From a virus, in IMG/VR virus record IMGVR_UViG_3300037485_000144, positions 1 to 29,870 of that record: a stretch of 29,870 bases of DNA. One strand, written 5' to 3'. Made by a program: the position numbers and the translations under genes. Under the pieces are notes generated by a model. It did no database searches. It was not told where the DNA came from and saw only the letters and a list, made by a program, of their open reading frames with translations. Position 1 is the first letter of the stretch, and each line of letters begins with the position of its first letter. Positions 4,425 to 28,274 of the stretch are shown piece by piece.

Positions 4425-6627
4425 TGACATGACCACCGTTGGGGTTGTCGCTGAAGGTGCTAATAAGCCTAACGACAAAAAAGACATGCTTGCAACGATG
4501 CGAAGCCGCTTTACTATGGCGGTTTCTGCGTATTCAGAAAGCCGTGAAGACGAGCTAGATGACTTACGCTTCGAGGCAGGCTCACCGGACAACCAATGGC
4601 AATGGCCTGCGGACGTACTGGCTACCCGTGGTTCAGTTCAAGGTCAAACCATCAATGCAAGACCATGCTTAACAATCAATAAGTTACCGCAACATGTTCA
4701 TCAAGTTACTAATGAACAACGCCAAAATCGCCCTTCGGTGAAGGTAATTCCTGTAGATGATAACGCTGACGTAGAGGTCGCGGAGATATTTGAGGGTGTG
4801 ATAAGGCATATTGAGTATATTTCAGATGCAGATGTCGCATACGACACAGCATGTGAAAACCAAGTCACCTATGGTGAAGGCTACATCCGTGTACTCACTA
4901 AATATTGCGACGACAATTCATTTGACCAAGACCTATACATTGGCCGTATCCGCAATTCCTTTAGCGTTTATATGGATCCTACAATACAAGACCCATGCGG
5001 CAGCGATGCTGAGTGGTGTTTTGTCACAGAAGACATGACGAAGGCAGAATACGAGCGTCAGTTCCCTGATGCCGCGCCAATTTCGTCCATGATGCAACAA
5101 GGTGTGGGCGACTCCTCACTAAGTCAGTGGTTGACTGAGAACACAGTGCGTGTTGCCGAGTATTTTTACTACGAGCATACGCCAACCAAGCTAAACTTAT
5201 ACCAAGGCAACATGAGCGCCGTAGAAGGCAGCCGTGAAGACAAAGAATTGAAGGCTTTAGGCTTAAAACCGCTTAAATCACGCATGGCAGACGTTAAAAA
5301 AGTCAAATGGCTCAAAACTAACGGCTTTGAAGTGCTAGAAGAACAAGATTGGGCGGGTAAATTTATACCTGTTATCCGTGTTGTAGGTAACGAATACGAA
5401 GTTGATGGCCGTTTATACGTGTCAGGCTTGATCCGTAACGCAAAAGACGCACAACGTATGTACAACTATTGGGTTTCACAAGAAGCCGAGATGTTGGCAC
5501 TGGCACCAAAAGCGCCATTCATAGGTTACGGCGGTCAATTTGAGGGTTACGAGACACAATGGAAGACTGCAAATACGACAAATTGGCCGTATTTAGAGGT
5601 TAATCCTGATGTAACAGACGGTGCTGGTGCGGTATTGCCATTACCTCAACGCGCTCAACCGCCTATGGCGTCTAGCGGTCTATTACAGGCTAAAGCTGGT
5701 GCATCTGACGATATTAAGTCCTCAACTGGTCAATATGACTCCAGTTTAGGCGCGACAAGTAACGAACGCTCAGGCCGTGCCATCTTAGCGCGTGAAAAAC
5801 AAGGCGACACAGGCACATACCACTACGTTGACAACTTAGCCCGTGCTATACGTCACTGTGGACGTCAATTAGTGGACATGATACCTAAAATTTACGATAC
5901 AGAGCGTATTGCTCGTATTATTGGTGTAGATGGCGAAGTGAAACGGGCTAAAATTAACCCATCACAAGCCGAGCCAGTAAAGAAAATTGTTGATGAAACA
6001 GGCATTGTGATTGAAAAAATTTACAATCCTAGCGTTGGTAAGTACGATGTATGCGTATCGACTGGCCCAAGCTACATGACTAAACGTCAAGAGTCACTAG
6101 ACGCCATGAGCCAACTATTGCAAGGCAACCCACAATTGTGGCAAGTGGCTGGCGATTTATTCGTTAAAAACATGGACTGGCCTGGCGCACAAGAGATGGC
6201 TAAACGCTTTGCTAAGACCATTGACCCTAAACTACTAAGCGATGCCGACGAAGACCCAGCATTGCAAGCTGCACAACAACAACTTGAAGCAATGGGCCAA
6301 GAGTTAGACCAATTGCACGGCATGTTGCAAAACGTCAGCAAATCTATGGAAGCGCAAGACTTGGCAATCAAAGAACAAGAGGCTAACATTAAAGCATACG
6401 ACGCTGAAACTAAACGTATCAGCGCAGTGCAGGCAAGCATGTCACCTGAACAAATCCAAGACATCGTTATGGGTACAGTTCACGGCATGATGGACAGCGG
6501 TGACTTAATTGGCGAGATGCCTGGTAGAGAAATGCCAAACGAAGGGCTAGAACAGCCTGAAGGCATGATGCCTGAAGAACAAATGCAACCTGAACAACCA
6601 ATGATGCCACCCGAAGGACAAATATAA
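4417..6627 (+). CDS. Portal protein, P22 gp1-like
   Basis: 736 residues, close to P22 portal (725). The portal dodecamer forms the DNA entry channel at one capsid vertex and docks terminase and later the tail factors. Visible features: an N-terminal helical segment (MLATMRSRFTMAVSAYSESR), INARPCLTINKLPQHVHQVTNEQRQNRPSV, which is typical for P22-like portals, an aromatic-rich core with WAGKFIPVIRVVGNEYEVDG, the clip/stem segment GATSNERSGRAILAREKQGD, and a long helical C-terminus (residues about 610-700) that would form the barrel, then a Met/Pro/Gln/Glu-rich tail. It overlaps groES and is followed by a TAATG junction with the next gene. Confidence 0.93.
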   Translation: MNDDMTTVGVVAEGANKPNDKKDMLATMRSRFTMAVSAYSESREDELDDLRFEAGSPDNQWQWPADVLATRGSVQGQTINARPCLTINKLPQHVHQVTNEQRQNRPSVKVIPVDDNADVEVAEIFEGVIRHIEYISDADVAYDTACENQVTYGEGYIRVLTKYCDDNSFDQDLYIGRIRNSFSVYMDPTIQDPCGSDAEWCFVTEDMTKAEYERQFPDAAPISSMMQQGVGDSSLSQWLTENTVRVAEYFYYEHTPTKLNLYQGNMSAVEGSREDKELKALGLKPLKSRMADVKKVKWLKTNGFEVLEEQDWAGKFIPVIRVVGNEYEVDGRLYVSGLIRNAKDAQRMYNYWVSQEAEMLALAPKAPFIGYGGQFEGYETQWKTANTTNWPYLEVNPDVTDGAGAVLPLPQRAQPPMASSGLLQAKAGASDDIKSSTGQYDSSLGATSNERSGRAILAREKQGDTGTYHYVDNLARAIRHCGRQLVDMIPKIYDTERIARIIGVDGEVKRAKINPSQAEPVKKIVDETGIVIEKIYNPSVGKYDVCVSTGPSYMTKRQESLDAMSQLLQGNPQLWQVAGDLFVKNMDWPGAQEMAKRFAKTIDPKLLSDADEDPALQAAQQQLEAMGQELDQLHGMLQNVSKSMEAQDLAIKEQEANIKAYDAETKRISAVQASMSPEQIQDIVMGTVHGMMDSGDLIGEMPGREMPNEGLEQPEGMMPEEQMQPEQPMMPPEGQI

Positions 6628-24568: not shown

Positions 24569-25210
24569 TTAAGTGTTACTAATAAATTCATTTAACTCCA
24601 CTTGCCCATGAGTTGACTTACCATAAATTAAATGAAATCTATTATGGCAAGTTTGACACAATGTAACCCCATTAGCTGGGTCGTTCCGCATACTAGGGTT
24701 AGTACTATATGGCTTTACATGATGTGCGTTTAGCTTAACAGTCGAACTACATTTGATACAGTAAGGCGTTTTTTGCTTAACCTCTCTTGCCCAAGCCGCA
24801 GTGGCGTTAGGGTTTTTAGGAATGTGTAGTTTACGCCTCATTTCATACTGCAAGCATCCGCACGATTTTGTATGATCTCGGCTTAACCTTAAATATGAAA
24901 CTTCGGTTTCTTTCCCGCAATCGCAACGACAATTCCATACTGCTTTACCTTTTTTTGTTCCCGCGTAATTAATAACCAGTAATCTGCCAAATCGTTTACC
25001 CTGTAAATCTATACGCCGGTAAGGATTATGTTTTAGGCACCCACATGATTTTGTTGTACCCATTAGCACATTATTTAGCGAGGCTTCAGTTTCATTTCCA
25101 CATGCGCATTTAAAAAGCCATTTATTTCTACCATAATTATCTTTACCCGATATTTTAATAGCTGTTAATTTTCCAAATACCTCACCTGTTACGTCTTTCG
25201 CTTTCACCAT
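24569..25210 (-). CDS. HNH endonuclease with two N-terminal zinc modules (homing type)
   Basis: 213 residues from ATG 25210, which has GGAG seven bases upstream; an ATG eight codons earlier lies further inside the DUF3310 gene. Two tandem zinc modules are seen: C35-x-C37 with SCGC (56-58), and C94-x-C96-x-C98 with SCGC (117-119), each preceded by a G-x-x-FGxL-type strand. The C-terminal HNH nuclease has C151-x2-C154, His163-His164, Asn180, C185-x2-C188-H189 and His193. This domain set is typical of mobile phage endonucleases that bind DNA by the zinc modules. It overlaps the 3' end of the DUF3310 gene by 29 bases, as if inserted at that gene's end. Confidence 0.9.
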   Translation of the reverse strand: MVKAKDVTGEVFGKLTAIKISGKDNYGRNKWLFKCACGNETEASLNNVLMGTTKSCGCLKHNPYRRIDLQGKRFGRLLVINYAGTKKGKAVWNCRCDCGKETEVSYLRLSRDHTKSCGCLQYEMRRKLHIPKNPNATAAWAREVKQKTPYCIKCSSTVKLNAHHVKPYSTNPSMRNDPANGVTLCQTCHNRFHLIYGKSTHGQVELNEFISNT

Positions 25211-25445
25211 ACTCAAACTCCATAAGCATTTCAATACAATGTATTGCTTTTTTTAAGTCTTCAATCCCGTTTTTATTACGAAACCTACTTACATACTTTA
25301 CTATAGTATGCTGACATGCGTCAAGATTATTTGCCATGCTATATTCCATTGGTTGTATAGCCATGTCAACGTAATGTGACCCATTCACTTGTTTTTGTAG
25401 CGCAGTCGCTTCTTCCATGTACATCTCTGTCATTCCGTCACTCAT
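25182..25445 (-). CDS. DUF3310 protein (phage nucleotide-kinase-like family)
   Basis: 87 residues. The family signature is complete: NGSHYVDMAIQPMEYSMANN, then DACQHTIVKYVSRFRNKNGI and EDLKKAIHCIEMLMEFEYGE (H-Y-x5-QP-x-E, then IVKYVSR-x-R-x-K-NG-x-EDL-KA-H). DUF3310 proteins are widespread in phage early regions; some databases call them nucleotide kinase-like, but activity is not established. Its start overlaps the upstream gene by 8 bases (ATGAGTGA). The 3' end is overlapped by the HNH gene. Confidence 0.9.
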   Translation of the reverse strand: MSDGMTEMYMEEATALQKQVNGSHYVDMAIQPMEYSMANNLDACQHTIVKYVSRFRNKNGIEDLKKAIHCIEMLMEFEYGESERRNR

Positions 25446-25659
25446 TGTTTGCTGCCTCCAATACTAAGTCTTCGACGCGGATCATCGTGTCGTCTGATAA
25501 TAGGTTTGATAAGTCTTGCGTAGAGTCTGGCAGTTCTATTGACAGTATCTCTACATCGACGTCGTCAGGGCTGTCACCAGTACCAAAACCGTCTGAGTAA
25601 CGCGTAATGTCTGCGTACACATCTAGCTCGATGCCGTATAGATTAATTGTATATATCAT
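25438..25659 (-). CDS. Hypothetical acidic protein, 73 residues
   Basis: Start chosen at 25659 because it forms an ATGA overlap with the preceding gene's stop, as do most joints in this operon; six more codons upstream are open. Begins MIYTINLYGIELDVYADITR and continues with a very acidic stretch (SDGFGTGDSPDDVDVEILSI; ELPDSTQDLSNLLSDDTMIR). Beta hairpin at the start and Asp-rich tail; similar small phage proteins exist with no known function. DNA mimicry is conceivable from charge, but there is no direct support. Confidence 0.68.
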   Translation of the reverse strand: MIYTINLYGIELDVYADITRYSDGFGTGDSPDDVDVEILSIELPDSTQDLSNLLSDDTMIRVEDLVLEAANNE

Positions 25660-25790
25660 TTTGTCACCCACATCCAAACTCTAGTCCAAAAGCCGACTGG
25701 CTCGTATTCCTCAATCGGTAGCCAAGGTGTTGCGTCTACGTTAGTAAACTTGTAATTTTGCCTATCCCAAACTTCACGATAGTTGTTCAT
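25656..25790 (-). CDS. Hypothetical Trp-rich protein, 44 residues
   Basis: Begins MNNYREVWDRQNYKFTNVDA and ends GFWTRVWMWVTK; five tryptophans in 44 residues. Both ends use ATGA overlaps (start with the 64-residue gene's stop at 25787, stop with the start at 25659). GGAGGCAG ribosome site upstream. Aromatic C-terminus could bind membrane or a protein partner. Not recognised. Confidence 0.62.
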   Translation of the reverse strand: MNNYREVWDRQNYKFTNVDATPWLPIEEYEPVGFWTRVWMWVTK

Positions 25791-25981
25791 GGTCGTACTG
25801 CCTCCTTAATTATTTCCACACGCTCACGCGCAGCGCGTAAGATGGTGTAGCGTTGATGTAATCGTTGTAACATTGAAATACGGCGCTCGGTTTGTCGCTC
25901 ATGGTTTAGCAACTCCAGCACTTCTTCCTCTGTCTTGTCGTTAATGATAGCGTTCAGTGAACGCCAGTTTAGTCTTTCCAT
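25787..25981 (-). CDS. Hypothetical basic helical protein, 64 residues
   Basis: Begins MERLNWRSLNAIINDKTEEE and continues as one or two charged helices (VLELLNHERQTERRISMLQR; LHQRYTILRAARERVEIIKE). AGGAGAG ribosome site 5 bases before the ATG at 25981; stop overlaps the next start (ATGA). Arg-rich coiled coil, possibly nucleic-acid binding or a dimeric regulator. No known family. Confidence 0.68.
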   Translation of the reverse strand: MERLNWRSLNAIINDKTEEEVLELLNHERQTERRISMLQRLHQRYTILRAARERVEIIKEAVRP

Positions 25982-25982
25982 C

Positions 25983-26222
25983 CTACTCTCCTTTGTAATG
26001 CAGGCCGTCGTTGCCGTTGGCTGCGATAATGTCTATACGTGACTCGTCCCAGTTAAGTGGGCATCCCGTAAATGCACATTCTTTTGTGGAAGCTAACCCT
26101 TTACCGCAGATGTTGCAGACAGGGTCTTTACTTCTAAAGATTAAGTCAAAGTTATCCTCAAACTGCTTGTTGTTTACGCGGCTCTGTATCAAGTCGCCTG
26201 TGATGTCGTTATGTGCCGCCAT
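25983..26222 (-). CDS. Conserved phage protein with four-cysteine zinc motif, 79 residues
   Basis: Start at 26222 is set by AGGGAGAA 5 bases upstream; eight more codons are open before it. N-terminus AAHNDITGDLIQSRVNNKQF then EDNFDLIFRSK is a phrase I recognise from small proteins of many phages. The C-terminal part contains CNICGKGLASTKECAFTGCP, a C-x2-C ... C-x4-C arrangement likely to bind one zinc. Role unknown; zinc-finger-like proteins in early operons often interact with DNA or host RNA polymerase, but that is speculation. Confidence 0.75.
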   Translation of the reverse strand: MAAHNDITGDLIQSRVNNKQFEDNFDLIFRSKDPVCNICGKGLASTKECAFTGCPLNWDESRIDIIAANGNDGLHYKGE

Positions 26223-26258
26223 CTTGTTCTCCCTAATTAAATGCAAAAAAGTGATACA

Positions 26259-26342
26259 TTACTTGGCCAGCTTCTCGGCGTTTTCTTTCATCTTGCTAAG
26301 AATTAATAAGAAGCGTAGTTCTTCCATCTCGGCTTGGGTCAT
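26259..26342 (-). CDS. Hypothetical peptide, 27 residues
   Basis: MTQAEMEELRFLLILSKMKE then NAEKLAK: one amphipathic helix. The ATG at 26342 overlaps the stop of the previous gene (ATGA), and a GAGGAGG ribosome site lies upstream within that gene. The stop is followed by 36 bases to the next start. Such short coupled ORFs may only relay translation, but the match to the operon's pattern supports it. Confidence 0.5.
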   Translation of the reverse strand: MTQAEMEELRFLLILSKMKENAEKLAK

Positions 26343-26527
26343 TGTGGTCTGTCCTCCTCATCAAACGTCATGTCACCATGGGGTATGTCATCATGCACAA
26401 TCAACCCATCCTCATCTGCCTCAATAAATCGTTGGCATATTACGCACCAGTAGCCTTCATCTTTAGCCATATTATTATCCGCCCATTTAGCTATCCATTT
26501 ACCACGGTCAAAAAACTCTTTAGTCAT
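26339..26527 (-). CDS. Hypothetical protein with CxxC motif, 62 residues
   Basis: Begins MTKEFFDRGKWIAKWADNNM; the centre YWCVICQRFIEADEDGLIVH holds one C-x2-C pair and a following His (VHDDIPHGDMTF), which together could bind zinc in a small treble-clef-like unit. The C-terminus is acidic. Both joints are ATGA overlaps. GGGAAG ribosome site upstream. Family not recognised. Confidence 0.68.
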   Translation of the reverse strand: MTKEFFDRGKWIAKWADNNMAKDEGYWCVICQRFIEADEDGLIVHDDIPHGDMTFDEEDRPQ

Positions 26528-26748
26528 ACAGTCTTCCCGATGTACGTCGCCTTAACATTGTTATTAAATTGCAATGTCACAGCGCACTCCTGACCTTTGT
26601 TTCTATTCATTAGCTTGTATAAGCCAAATCCAATGGAAACAATACAGATAAGTAGCAGTGTTGCTATCACTACGGCTGCGCGATCTATGCTTGCATCTTT
26701 ATTACAGTCGCACTTACGTCCTTGCTGGCAGTCTCGATTACATGTCAT
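26524..26748 (-). CDS. Cys-rich N-terminus plus membrane helix, 74 residues
   Basis: MTCNRDCQQGRKCDCNKDAS holds four cysteines in the first 15 residues (C3, C7, C13, C15), followed by one membrane helix AAVVIATLLLICIVSIGFGL and a beta-like C-terminus (ECAVTLQFNNNVKATYIGKT). The M-x-C-N-x-x-C-x-QGRxCDC start is a recurring phage small-protein pattern. AGGAC ribosome site. The Cys cluster probably binds metal on the cytoplasmic side; function unknown. Confidence 0.7.
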   Translation of the reverse strand: MTCNRDCQQGRKCDCNKDASIDRAAVVIATLLLICIVSIGFGLYKLMNRNKGQECAVTLQFNNNVKATYIGKTV

Positions 26749-26867
26749 TTTGTCCTCTCTTTCGCTATCGCTGCACAGGGCGCACAGCGTTTAGATAGTT
26801 TATACACTACTTGTGTGTCTCTATAGGCTTTACAATACTTGCAGTAATACTTTTTTGTTTCAGTCAT
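26745..26867 (-). CDS. Small zinc-ribbon-like protein, 40 residues
   Basis: MTETKKYYCKYCKAYRDTQV, then RCAPCAAIAKERTK: two C-x2-C knuckles 18 residues apart, the layout of a minimal zinc ribbon. ATGA overlaps on both sides (start with the 28-residue gene, stop with the Cys-rich membrane protein). An AAGGAAA site lies 11 bases before the start. Basic and compact; may bind DNA, RNA or RNA polymerase. Confidence 0.65.
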   Translation of the reverse strand: MTETKKYYCKYCKAYRDTQVVYKLSKRCAPCAAIAKERTK

Positions 26868-26950
26868 ATATTCGTTTCCTTAAATGCTTGTTCCCATAAT
26901 TTCTTTACTATTTCACGCCATTCTTTTGGGGTAATTGGGGTACTGGCCAT
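26864..26950 (-). CDS. Hypothetical peptide, 28 residues
   Basis: MASTPITPKEWREIVKKLWE then QAFKETNI, a single amphipathic helix with a Pro/Thr cap. Excellent AAAGGAG ribosome site 6 bases before ATG 26950, and ATGA overlap with the zinc-ribbon gene. It lies 16 bases after the helicase stop. Too short for assignment. Confidence 0.55.
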   Translation of the reverse strand: MASTPITPKEWREIVKKLWEQAFKETNI

Positions 26951-26966: not shown

Positions 26967-28274
26967 TCATTTCAACTCCTCCATTGCAATATCAGAAATA
27001 GCCCGCTTGTCATGCAAGGCCGCCCAAATACGTTCGTCTACTGTTTTGTTAGCTAACAGTATGTAGCACCACACGTCATGCGCTTGGCCACTGCGATGCA
27101 GACGGCCTATGGTTTGTTCATACAACTCTAAGCTCCACGGCAGTGAAAAGAACACAATCTTACAGCCGCCGTGTTGTAAGTTCAGGCCGTGGCCTGCTGA
27201 CTTAGGGTGTATCAATAGCAGTTCAATCTCACCGTTGTTCCAACGCTTGATGGCGTCAGGCTCGTCTATCGTCACGGCTTTAGGGAAGCGCTGCTTTAGC
27301 TTTTGCAGTTCCGCCTGGAAGTTGTACACCACGATAGTGTTGTCGTGTTGGTTTTCGTCCAGCAAGTCCTCTAGCATGTCGAACTTATGGAAGCTCAACC
27401 ACTTTGTTTCGCTGCTGTCTTCTGTGTCGTAGATAAAGCCGGACGACAACTGCTGTAGCTTAGACGTCAGCACGGCAGCGTTAACGGCGGTCAATGTTTT
27501 GCCGTCCAGCTCCATCACAAACGTCTTCTTAAAGTGTTCGTACTCTTGTCGGTTAGGCAACTCACATCGCACCTCTACCGTATGACATGGCGGCAGTTTG
27601 TCGCTGTATTCGCCAGCCTCTAGCACATACGTGGCAGGCTTAATAATCTGCATCACGTTCTTAAGCGCATCAGGGCGGGGCTTCCAGTCGTTAAAGTCTT
27701 TGTTCAGTAGCACAAAGTGTTGTTGTAAGAACGCGCCTTTGCTACGGCCTAACAAGGTCTGATCGACTATCTTGCACTGGCCAAACACATCCTCTAGGCC
27801 GTTGCTGGTGAACGATCCAGTCAAGCCCCAGCGTATTGTTATCTTGTCCATCAGCTTGGCGATGGCCTTAAAGCGTTTGCCAGTAGGATTTTTTAGCCTG
27901 GTTAGTTCGTCAAACACCACGGCATCAAATCCTTTTAATGTCTCTAGCGATTGCAGGCTGTCGTAGTTCGTCACCACTACATTAGCGTCAGTCTTGAACG
28001 CATCCTGGCGCTGCTTTTGTGTGCCTACTGCCACAACAAGTGACAGACGTGGCGCCCACTTAGGCTGCTCAACGGGCCACACGTCAGTGCAGACACGCTT
28101 AGGCGCAACGACTAGGAAGCGCTTAACAAGCCCCGCCTCGATAGCGTCCTGCATAGCAGTGAGCGTGATGGCCGTCTTACCTGCACCCACAGGCGCAAGG
28201 ATCATGGCACGGTCATGCTCAAATATAAAGTCAGCCGCGACTTCTTGGTAGGGTCGTAGCTTTAGCCCAGTCAT
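26967..28274 (-). CDS. SNF2/SF2-family DNA helicase
   Basis: 435 residues from ATG 28274 (a TTG codon just before it is also open); AAGGA lies upstream inside the VRR-NUC gene. Motifs: Q-like LRPYQ near the N-terminus, Walker A LAPVGAGKTA (motif I, about residues 27-35), motif II as DELT (about 122-125, a DEAx variant), motif III LTGSFTSN, and motif VI QTIGRLHRSGQ (about 387-397), whose GRxHRxGQ form marks SNF2-type translocases. The N-lobe is complete but the inter-lobe insertion is short. With VRR-NUC it recurs as a phage replication/repair pair, probably acting on forked or recombining phage DNA. Overlaps VRR-NUC by 44 bases. Confidence 0.92.
   Translation of the reverse strand: MTGLKLRPYQEVAADFIFEHDRAMILAPVGAGKTAITLTAMQDAIEAGLVKRFLVVAPKRVCTDVWPVEQPKWAPRLSLVVAVGTQKQRQDAFKTDANVVVTNYDSLQSLETLKGFDAVVFDELTRLKNPTGKRFKAIAKLMDKITIRWGLTGSFTSNGLEDVFGQCKIVDQTLLGRSKGAFLQQHFVLLNKDFNDWKPRPDALKNVMQIIKPATYVLEAGEYSDKLPPCHTVEVRCELPNRQEYEHFKKTFVMELDGKTLTAVNAAVLTSKLQQLSSGFIYDTEDSSETKWLSFHKFDMLEDLLDENQHDNTIVVYNFQAELQKLKQRFPKAVTIDEPDAIKRWNNGEIELLLIHPKSAGHGLNLQHGGCKIVFFSLPWSLELYEQTIGRLHRSGQAHDVWCYILLANKTVDERIWAALHDKRAISDIAMEELK

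Follow-up and report, generated by a model that had tools for sequence, protein, structure and literature searches.

The virus record IMGVR_UViG_3300037485_000144 (29,870 bases, analysed over its whole length and called the window below) is classed as linear and may therefore be a fragment. On its minus strand, from position 26950 to 25182 behind a helicase gene, lie nine small open reading frames (ORFs) and a DUF3310 gene, K87, almost without spacing (Table 1), and an ORF ahead of the helicase presumably encodes a VRR-NUC-like protein. We describe here this chain of tiny genes and the short conserved peptide, called the NGNDG peptide, at the C-terminus of one of its products, G79. Numbers preceded by L designate compared loci.

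Table 1. Features of the minus-strand gene chain and the helicase gene, in order of transcription.
Feature	Coordinates	Strand	Basis
SNF2/DEAD-type helicase, first large gene of the operon	26967..28265	-	relatives at 66-99% in viral contigs; phage matches annotated as DNA helicase
B28, 28-residue ORF, unproven	26864..26950	-	ATGA joint to C40
C40, CxxC...CxxC ribbon-like product	26745..26867	-	same module fused behind TGD module in L263/L211
D74, N-terminal C-x3-C-x-Q-G-R-x-C-x-C module, hydrophobic stretch, conserved C-terminal module	26524..26748	-	58 distinct relatives
E62, FFxRGKxIAxWAD module and CxxC...VHDDIxH module	26339..26527	-	module matches across loci
F27, 27-residue product	26259..26342	-	26 loci
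G79, three modules: TGD (N-terminal), four-Cys, NGNDG peptide (C-terminal)	25983..26222	-	alignments, pattern census
NGNDG portable peptide, G79 residues 62-79 (C-terminus)	25986..26039	-	tblastn, codon-pattern scan
H64, without cysteine, conserved behind helicase	25787..25981	-	90 loci
I44, ATGA-coupled to H64	25656..25790	-	overlap kept in relatives
J73, ATGA-coupled to I44	25438..25659	-	overlap kept in relatives
K87, DUF3310 protein (phage nucleotide kinase-like family)	25182..25445	-	Pfam PF11753, phrog_236

Six neighbouring pairs in the chain (B28/C40, C40/D74, D74/E62, E62/F27, H64/I44 and I44/J73) are joined by 4-base ATGA overlaps, four of them in one run, and J73 and K87 overlap by 8 bases. 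The opposite strand of the same stretch has no ATGA joint, and 1000 dinucleotide shuffles gave a mean of 0.24 and a maximum of three, never in a run of four or more; the remainder of the window has seven on the plus strand, none of them in a run. A preliminary description of this DNA had counted at least five such joints, a count that is confirmed here, and proposed co-translation. Counted by locus and not by phage (several loci share one contig), the H64/I44 overlap is kept in 43 of 43 cases, that of I44/J73 in 34 of 43 and the 8-base overlap of J73 and K87 in 33 of 40, and the D74/E62 overlap in 2 of 13 only; in other phages, D74 and F27 are themselves joined by a 4-base overlap in 21 of 26 loci. 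Conservation of these start-stop joints supports the view that the chain would be co-translated.

Pooled ratios of non-synonymous to synonymous differences (pN/pS) against the window are 0.31 for D74, 0.11 for F27, 0.27 for G79, 0.42 for H64, 0.31 for I44, 0.29 for J73, 0.33 for K87 and 0.32 for the helicase, with 0.25 for C40 and 0.08 for E62 calculated from one distinct partner each. By this measure, the chain genes that have relatives are under purifying selection; B28 found no relative among the loci compared and is not confirmed as a gene. Among close relatives with 97-99% identical helicases, the genes from the helicase to G79 vary from phage to phage and H64-I44-J73 stay constant, so that the former make up a variable section within a conserved operon. 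D74, F27, G79 and K87 also occur together, in other orders, in phages whose distantly related helicase is located elsewhere.

Four of the products carry clustered cysteines, with the patterns C-x2-C-x9-C-x4-C in G79, C-x2-C-x14-H-x4-H in E62, C-x3-C-x5-C-x-C plus a hydrophobic stretch in D74 and C-x2-C-x15-C-x2-C in C40. These are the 79-, 62-, 74- and 40-residue proteins that the preliminary description had taken for mini zinc proteins (J73, which would also have 79 residues if read from a TTG, has no cysteine), and both their frames and their cysteines, on whose conservation it had staked that proposal, recur in relatives. In an alignment of 40 D74 sequences, restricted to proteins of at least 66 residues, C3, C7, Q9, G10, R11, C13 and C15 are invariant, and of the 58 distinct relatives that are complete, 54 have the cysteine motif; the four-cysteine pattern of G79 is found in 55 of 68 distinct relatives. 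Counting the window's own copy (L001) in each case, the C-terminal module of E62 (CxxC...VHDDIxH...PQ) occurs in 87 loci with 50 distinct ORFs and its N-terminal module in 23 loci; C40 has few close relatives and one fused relative. Zinc binding by the four conserved cysteine or histidine ligands of D74, G79, the E62 C-terminal module and C40 is plausible from their spacing, and D74 looks like a membrane protein rather than a soluble inhibitor. Searches of Pfam, PHROG and NCBIfam returned no family that would give a function to C40, D74, E62 or G79, the match of C40 to the U1-type zinc finger PF06220 (17.8 bits) staying below the cut-off of 22, and no solved structure matches G79. The CxxxCxQGRxCxC module also stands before a hydrophobic stretch, with other C-termini, in two chromosomal proteins of a beta-proteobacterial metagenome-assembled genome and of Paucibacter (L197:5001-5579 and L198:4890-5189).

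The chain proteins are shown by comparison of their sequences to be mosaics of detachable peptides of 12-40 residues that occur elsewhere in other orders, with other partners or alone. Alignments of G79 relatives include some without the cysteine part, some without the N-terminal TGD part and some without the tail, and a pattern census across all compared loci (given as ORFs/distinct ORFs) found the architectures TGD-Zn-NGNDG (87/36), TGD-Zn-GELP (18/6), TGD-Zn-NGxIGY (11/4), TGD-NGNDG (5/4), TGD-NGNDG-KSTGEV (6/5), KSTGEV-NGNDG (5/5), NGNDG-KSTGEV (4/4), NGNDG-DUF3310 (7/6) and TGD-C40 (2/1). The E62 of the window is of the type WAD-E62C (13/6), and its C-terminal module stands alone in 72/44; D74 relatives are found as WAD-QGR-D74C (8/5) and without the QGR module (9/7). 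In L040-L043, L052, L054 and L068 the WAD peptide of E62 continues in frame into the start of D74, and the same sequence comparisons show that a module can be an ORF of its own, coupled to its neighbour, or part of an in-frame fusion.

Several further modules came to light in these comparisons. One, Y-E-L-N-K-S-T-G-E-V, is a second portable peptide, which precedes the NGNDG peptide in some proteins and follows it in others (L195, L333, L368, L308, L076, L078 and L344), and a GKGS-type N-terminal module with an FDxIF/WDxIW-like end replaces TGD in L182, L170, L171, L175, L332 and L283. An alternative G79 tail, IDxNxGEL(P/L), is found in phages without the NGNDG peptide (most of L056-L072, and L160). 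A group of matches between a TGD query and the T4 sliding clamp was discarded: the one inspected lay antisense to the clamp gene and was put down to chance, and the others were judged alike without inspection.

Most widely travelled is the C-terminal peptide of G79, with the consensus R-[MI]-[DN]-[IV]-I-G-Q-N-G-N-D-G-x-H-Y. A tblastn search with the G79 tail matched annotated phage proteins that have nothing else in common, in which the peptide is N-terminal (Vibrio phage PS25B.1 p0045, 1.185.O_38 and the ribonucleotide reductase-like 1.021.A_42), C-terminal (the PspYZU01 nucleotide kinase and P19250A_29) or internal (Itty13, ZP9_39 and Touem01_89); in PS-1 (L286, about 1001-1048) it lies ahead of the annotated gene start in an unannotated ORF, and in ctXG6705 (L195, about 5001-5207) inside another. 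A codon pattern for NGNDGxHY, scanned over 2.9 million viral contigs, found at least 120 stretches, against five in all for an order-reversed control pattern on the same contigs. Of the 121 matches listed, 120 have readable upstream residues, and at positions that the pattern left unspecified these have Arg at -7 in 119, Met or Ile at -6 in 106, Asp or Asn at -5 in 108 and Ile or Val at -3 in 118; the full upstream context is fitted by 115 of the matches listed. Across the same matches, each conserved position is encoded by a mixture of synonymous codons, with all of them in use, and the frame is preserved, a pattern of substitution that shows constraint at the level of the protein. Within the literature searches made, the peptide is undescribed, its exact strings having turned up in a single unrelated paper among PMC open-access texts, and it has no match in the Protein Data Bank. 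An AlphaFold model of one DUF3310 carrier (L343), built on a shallow alignment of 24 sequences, has the peptide (residues 46-61) as its only segment with a predicted local distance difference test score (pLDDT) below 50, while blocks of the DUF3310 domain mostly reach 87-93, which is suggestive of a disordered peptide in this carrier.

Once the peptide is masked, the 119 carrier ORFs among the matches listed fall into 47 clusters (BLAST E 1e-3 without composition correction, by which a 37-member cluster may have been chained together and some singletons may be remote relatives), and an alignment of one ORF per cluster leaves only the peptide stretch in common. By cluster representative, again among the matches listed, the peptide is N-terminal in 14, in the middle in 16 and C-terminal in 16, and one representative is classed as short. 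Judged from sequence, the peptide is short, conserved and placed at varied positions on non-homologous carriers, as would be expected of a short linear docking motif. Pfam families recognised on the 47 representatives are dGTP_diPhyd_N (2), RecA, P450, DUF3310, RNR, PRA-PH, DnaA_C, 5'-3' exonuclease, MazG, DUF6378 and DUF1599, and weakly DUF7326 and GP67; among these, the pyrophosphohydrolase families (PRA-PH, MazG and others) are probably related to one another. Forty-seven length-matched control ORFs from the same loci gave a mixture of ERF, Pyr_excise, VRR_NUC, MazG/PRA-PH, DUF3310, HSP20, lysozyme, baseplate, Lar, DksA, glycosyltransferase and other families. Proteins of DNA or nucleotide metabolism make up 11 of 14 annotated carriers and about 5 of 20 annotated controls (Fisher p 0.004), and those related to deoxynucleoside triphosphates (dNTPs) 8 of 14 and 3 of 20 (p 0.02), both rough values, with categories assigned by hand from tables that list families and not members. 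In the cytochrome P450 (L402:1358-2758), encoded by a viral contig that could be misclassified, the peptide lies close to the N-terminus; the P450 cluster has a second member, probably L340.

Copy number was assessed in 46 records chosen for the peptide or the TGD module, some of them fragments, with an exact pattern that misses diverged copies. A relaxed pattern matched 45 of the 46, 44 once and one twice, and its backwards version matched one. The record with two copies, L353, has tandem nearby genes that share an N-terminal leader with the peptide (5262-6171), and the sole record without a match, pf16, had been chosen for TGD only. Apart from L353, none of these records showed the multiple copies that a hub motif would predict. 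The peptide occurs in phages of Vibrio, Pseudomonas, Shewanella and Methylophilaceae, and weakly of Halomonas. A scan of 369 bacterial genomes, all from one class, gave a single match with an in-frame stop inside it (the backwards pattern also matched once), and mimicry of a host peptide was rejected for that class on this ground.

At the end of the chain, K87 matches Pfam PF11753 (DUF3310; E 1.4e-7, 31.9 bits, above the gathering cut-off of 24) and phrog_236 (nucleotide kinase; E 3.7e-17), and the PF11753 profile has no match among the other nine chain products, G79 and the cysteine proteins included. The K87 allele of the window is found at 95%, together with the adjacent HNH gene at 96%, in L089 only (window 24569-25445), and in the other close relatives K87 is at 43-69% and the HNH gene is absent. 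The HNH gene seems to travel along with a DUF3310 allele of its own.

We tentatively favour, at somewhat short of an even chance, a reading in which the chain would be the distal part of a phage replication or early operon, translated by start-stop coupling and composed of module mosaics, with neighbouring micro-ORFs that are probably joined and separated as phages recombine. G79 would be an adaptor made of the N-terminal TGD module, a four-cysteine knob probably holding zinc and the C-terminal NGNDG peptide. The peptide itself would be a short, portable linear motif, as a rule with one copy in each genome, borne by whichever protein of DNA or nucleotide metabolism the phage has, and would most likely tether its carrier to a single shared partner in the phage replication or dNTP machinery. 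Several observations weigh against this reading. G79 itself models poorly (AlphaFold pLDDT 56, predicted template modelling score 0.20, a single helix at 19-29), a P450 is among the carriers, most clusters lack a named domain, and a single copy misfits a system like that of clamp motifs, in which several proteins dock onto one hub. DUF3310 lies within 2 kb of the peptide in 10 of 52 cases against 12% for random positions, a proximity so weak that we dropped the idea of DUF3310 as its obligatory neighbour. Of 30 further records of the G79 family, eight match the peptide once and 22 lack it, all of the latter with a different G79 tail or none, so that the peptide is dispensable or replaced; compensation by a copy elsewhere was sought in these 22 and found in none.

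A single copy on an arbitrary carrier would suffice for a host-directed effector, and the takeover kit proposed in the preliminary description, which is only partly supported, survives in this form: the peptide, perhaps with the cysteine mini-proteins, would inhibit a host protein or defence, and its carrier would be an early-expressed vehicle. Carriers do tend to early-type genes, small coupled early genes are a classic site of takeover genes, and the stop-broken match among the bacterial genomes indicates that the peptide is not a host peptide in that class. Against this stand the enrichment of carriers for DNA and nucleotide enzymes even relative to ORFs of the same loci, the lack of any match to a known anti-host family in Pfam, PHROG and NCBIfam, and the spread of host groups, which would demand a widely conserved target; for the cysteine proteins as a kit, the membrane-like D74, the recurrence of the G79 tail on phage proteins of DNA and nucleotide metabolism and the lack of a family with a function for any of them add to the doubt. 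We consider an effector less likely than not but nearly as likely as docking, and it is the carrier bias that puts docking slightly ahead of it. That these are ordinary small phage genes, with overlaps from tight packing, cysteines that hold small folds and shared peptides as functionless leftovers of fusion, seems improbable to us. ATGA overlaps are common in phages and present elsewhere in this window, and mosaicism of phage proteins is documented (PMC10684548), but a peptide kept near letter for letter with freely mixed codons in unrelated proteins is no neutral leftover, and the chain bears the marks of purifying selection. A nascent-chain or co-translational signal that works during coupled translation, for instance an arrest or folding peptide, would account for conservation at the protein level, independence of position and the proximity of coupled start-stop joints in Vibrio phages, but the peptide occurs internally as well as at extreme C-termini and no common downstream feature was seen, which makes this very unlikely. 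Least credible of all, and close to dismissed, is a DNA or RNA element (origin, promoter or recombination site) translated by happenstance: it would explain the occurrence of the stretch in many different genes, but not the mixing of synonymous codons in a preserved frame.

A broader proposal, to which we give a chance only just short of even, is that a common vocabulary of portable peptides, each of about 12-40 residues, runs through phages. The 16-residue NGNDG peptide would be its clearest word, a functional unit sufficient in itself, normally present once per genome, moving between unrelated early proteins and addressing one conserved partner, and rows of coupled tiny genes such as the one in this window would be the places where such peptides live alone and get joined. 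The majority of tiny phage genes lack an assigned function and are handled as orphans without relation to each other; should they prove to be combinations drawn from a limited set of such peptides, they could be grouped and tested by peptide instead of singly. The presence of the NGNDG peptide on RecA, ribonucleotide reductase, exonuclease and pyrophosphohydrolases points to one partner in phage DNA metabolism or one host target, for which it would be a ready bait.

Smug et al. 2023 (PMC10684548) report that unrelated phage proteins share fragments, that replication proteins are among the most mosaic classes, and that their sequence-based measure demanded shared fragments of at least 50 residues. 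Relative to the mosaicism described there, the modules presented here are of 12-40 residues and constitute whole mini-proteins, and if the proposal is true, both family libraries and the 50-residue limit would miss them. Among established families, DUF3310 counts K87 as a member, and some DUF3310 proteins bear the peptide, outside the domain, although most carriers are not DUF3310 proteins; we take this family to be linked to the T7 gp1.7-type nucleotide kinase. The early takeover proteins of T4 and T7 are small, coupled and encoded in early regions, some with zinc-like sites. The chain resembles them in size, coupling and zinc-like sites, and no homology to them was found. The motifs of clamp-binding (PIP-type) proteins and the tail motifs of single-stranded DNA-binding protein (SSB) are short, flexible and independent of position on unrelated proteins of DNA metabolism. 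In its shortness, its indifference to position and its unrelated DNA-metabolism carriers the NGNDG peptide is like them, with a suggestion of flexibility in the model of one carrier. It is longer than they are, at about 16 residues, and differs from them in its restriction to phages within the searched data and its usual presence as one copy per genome.

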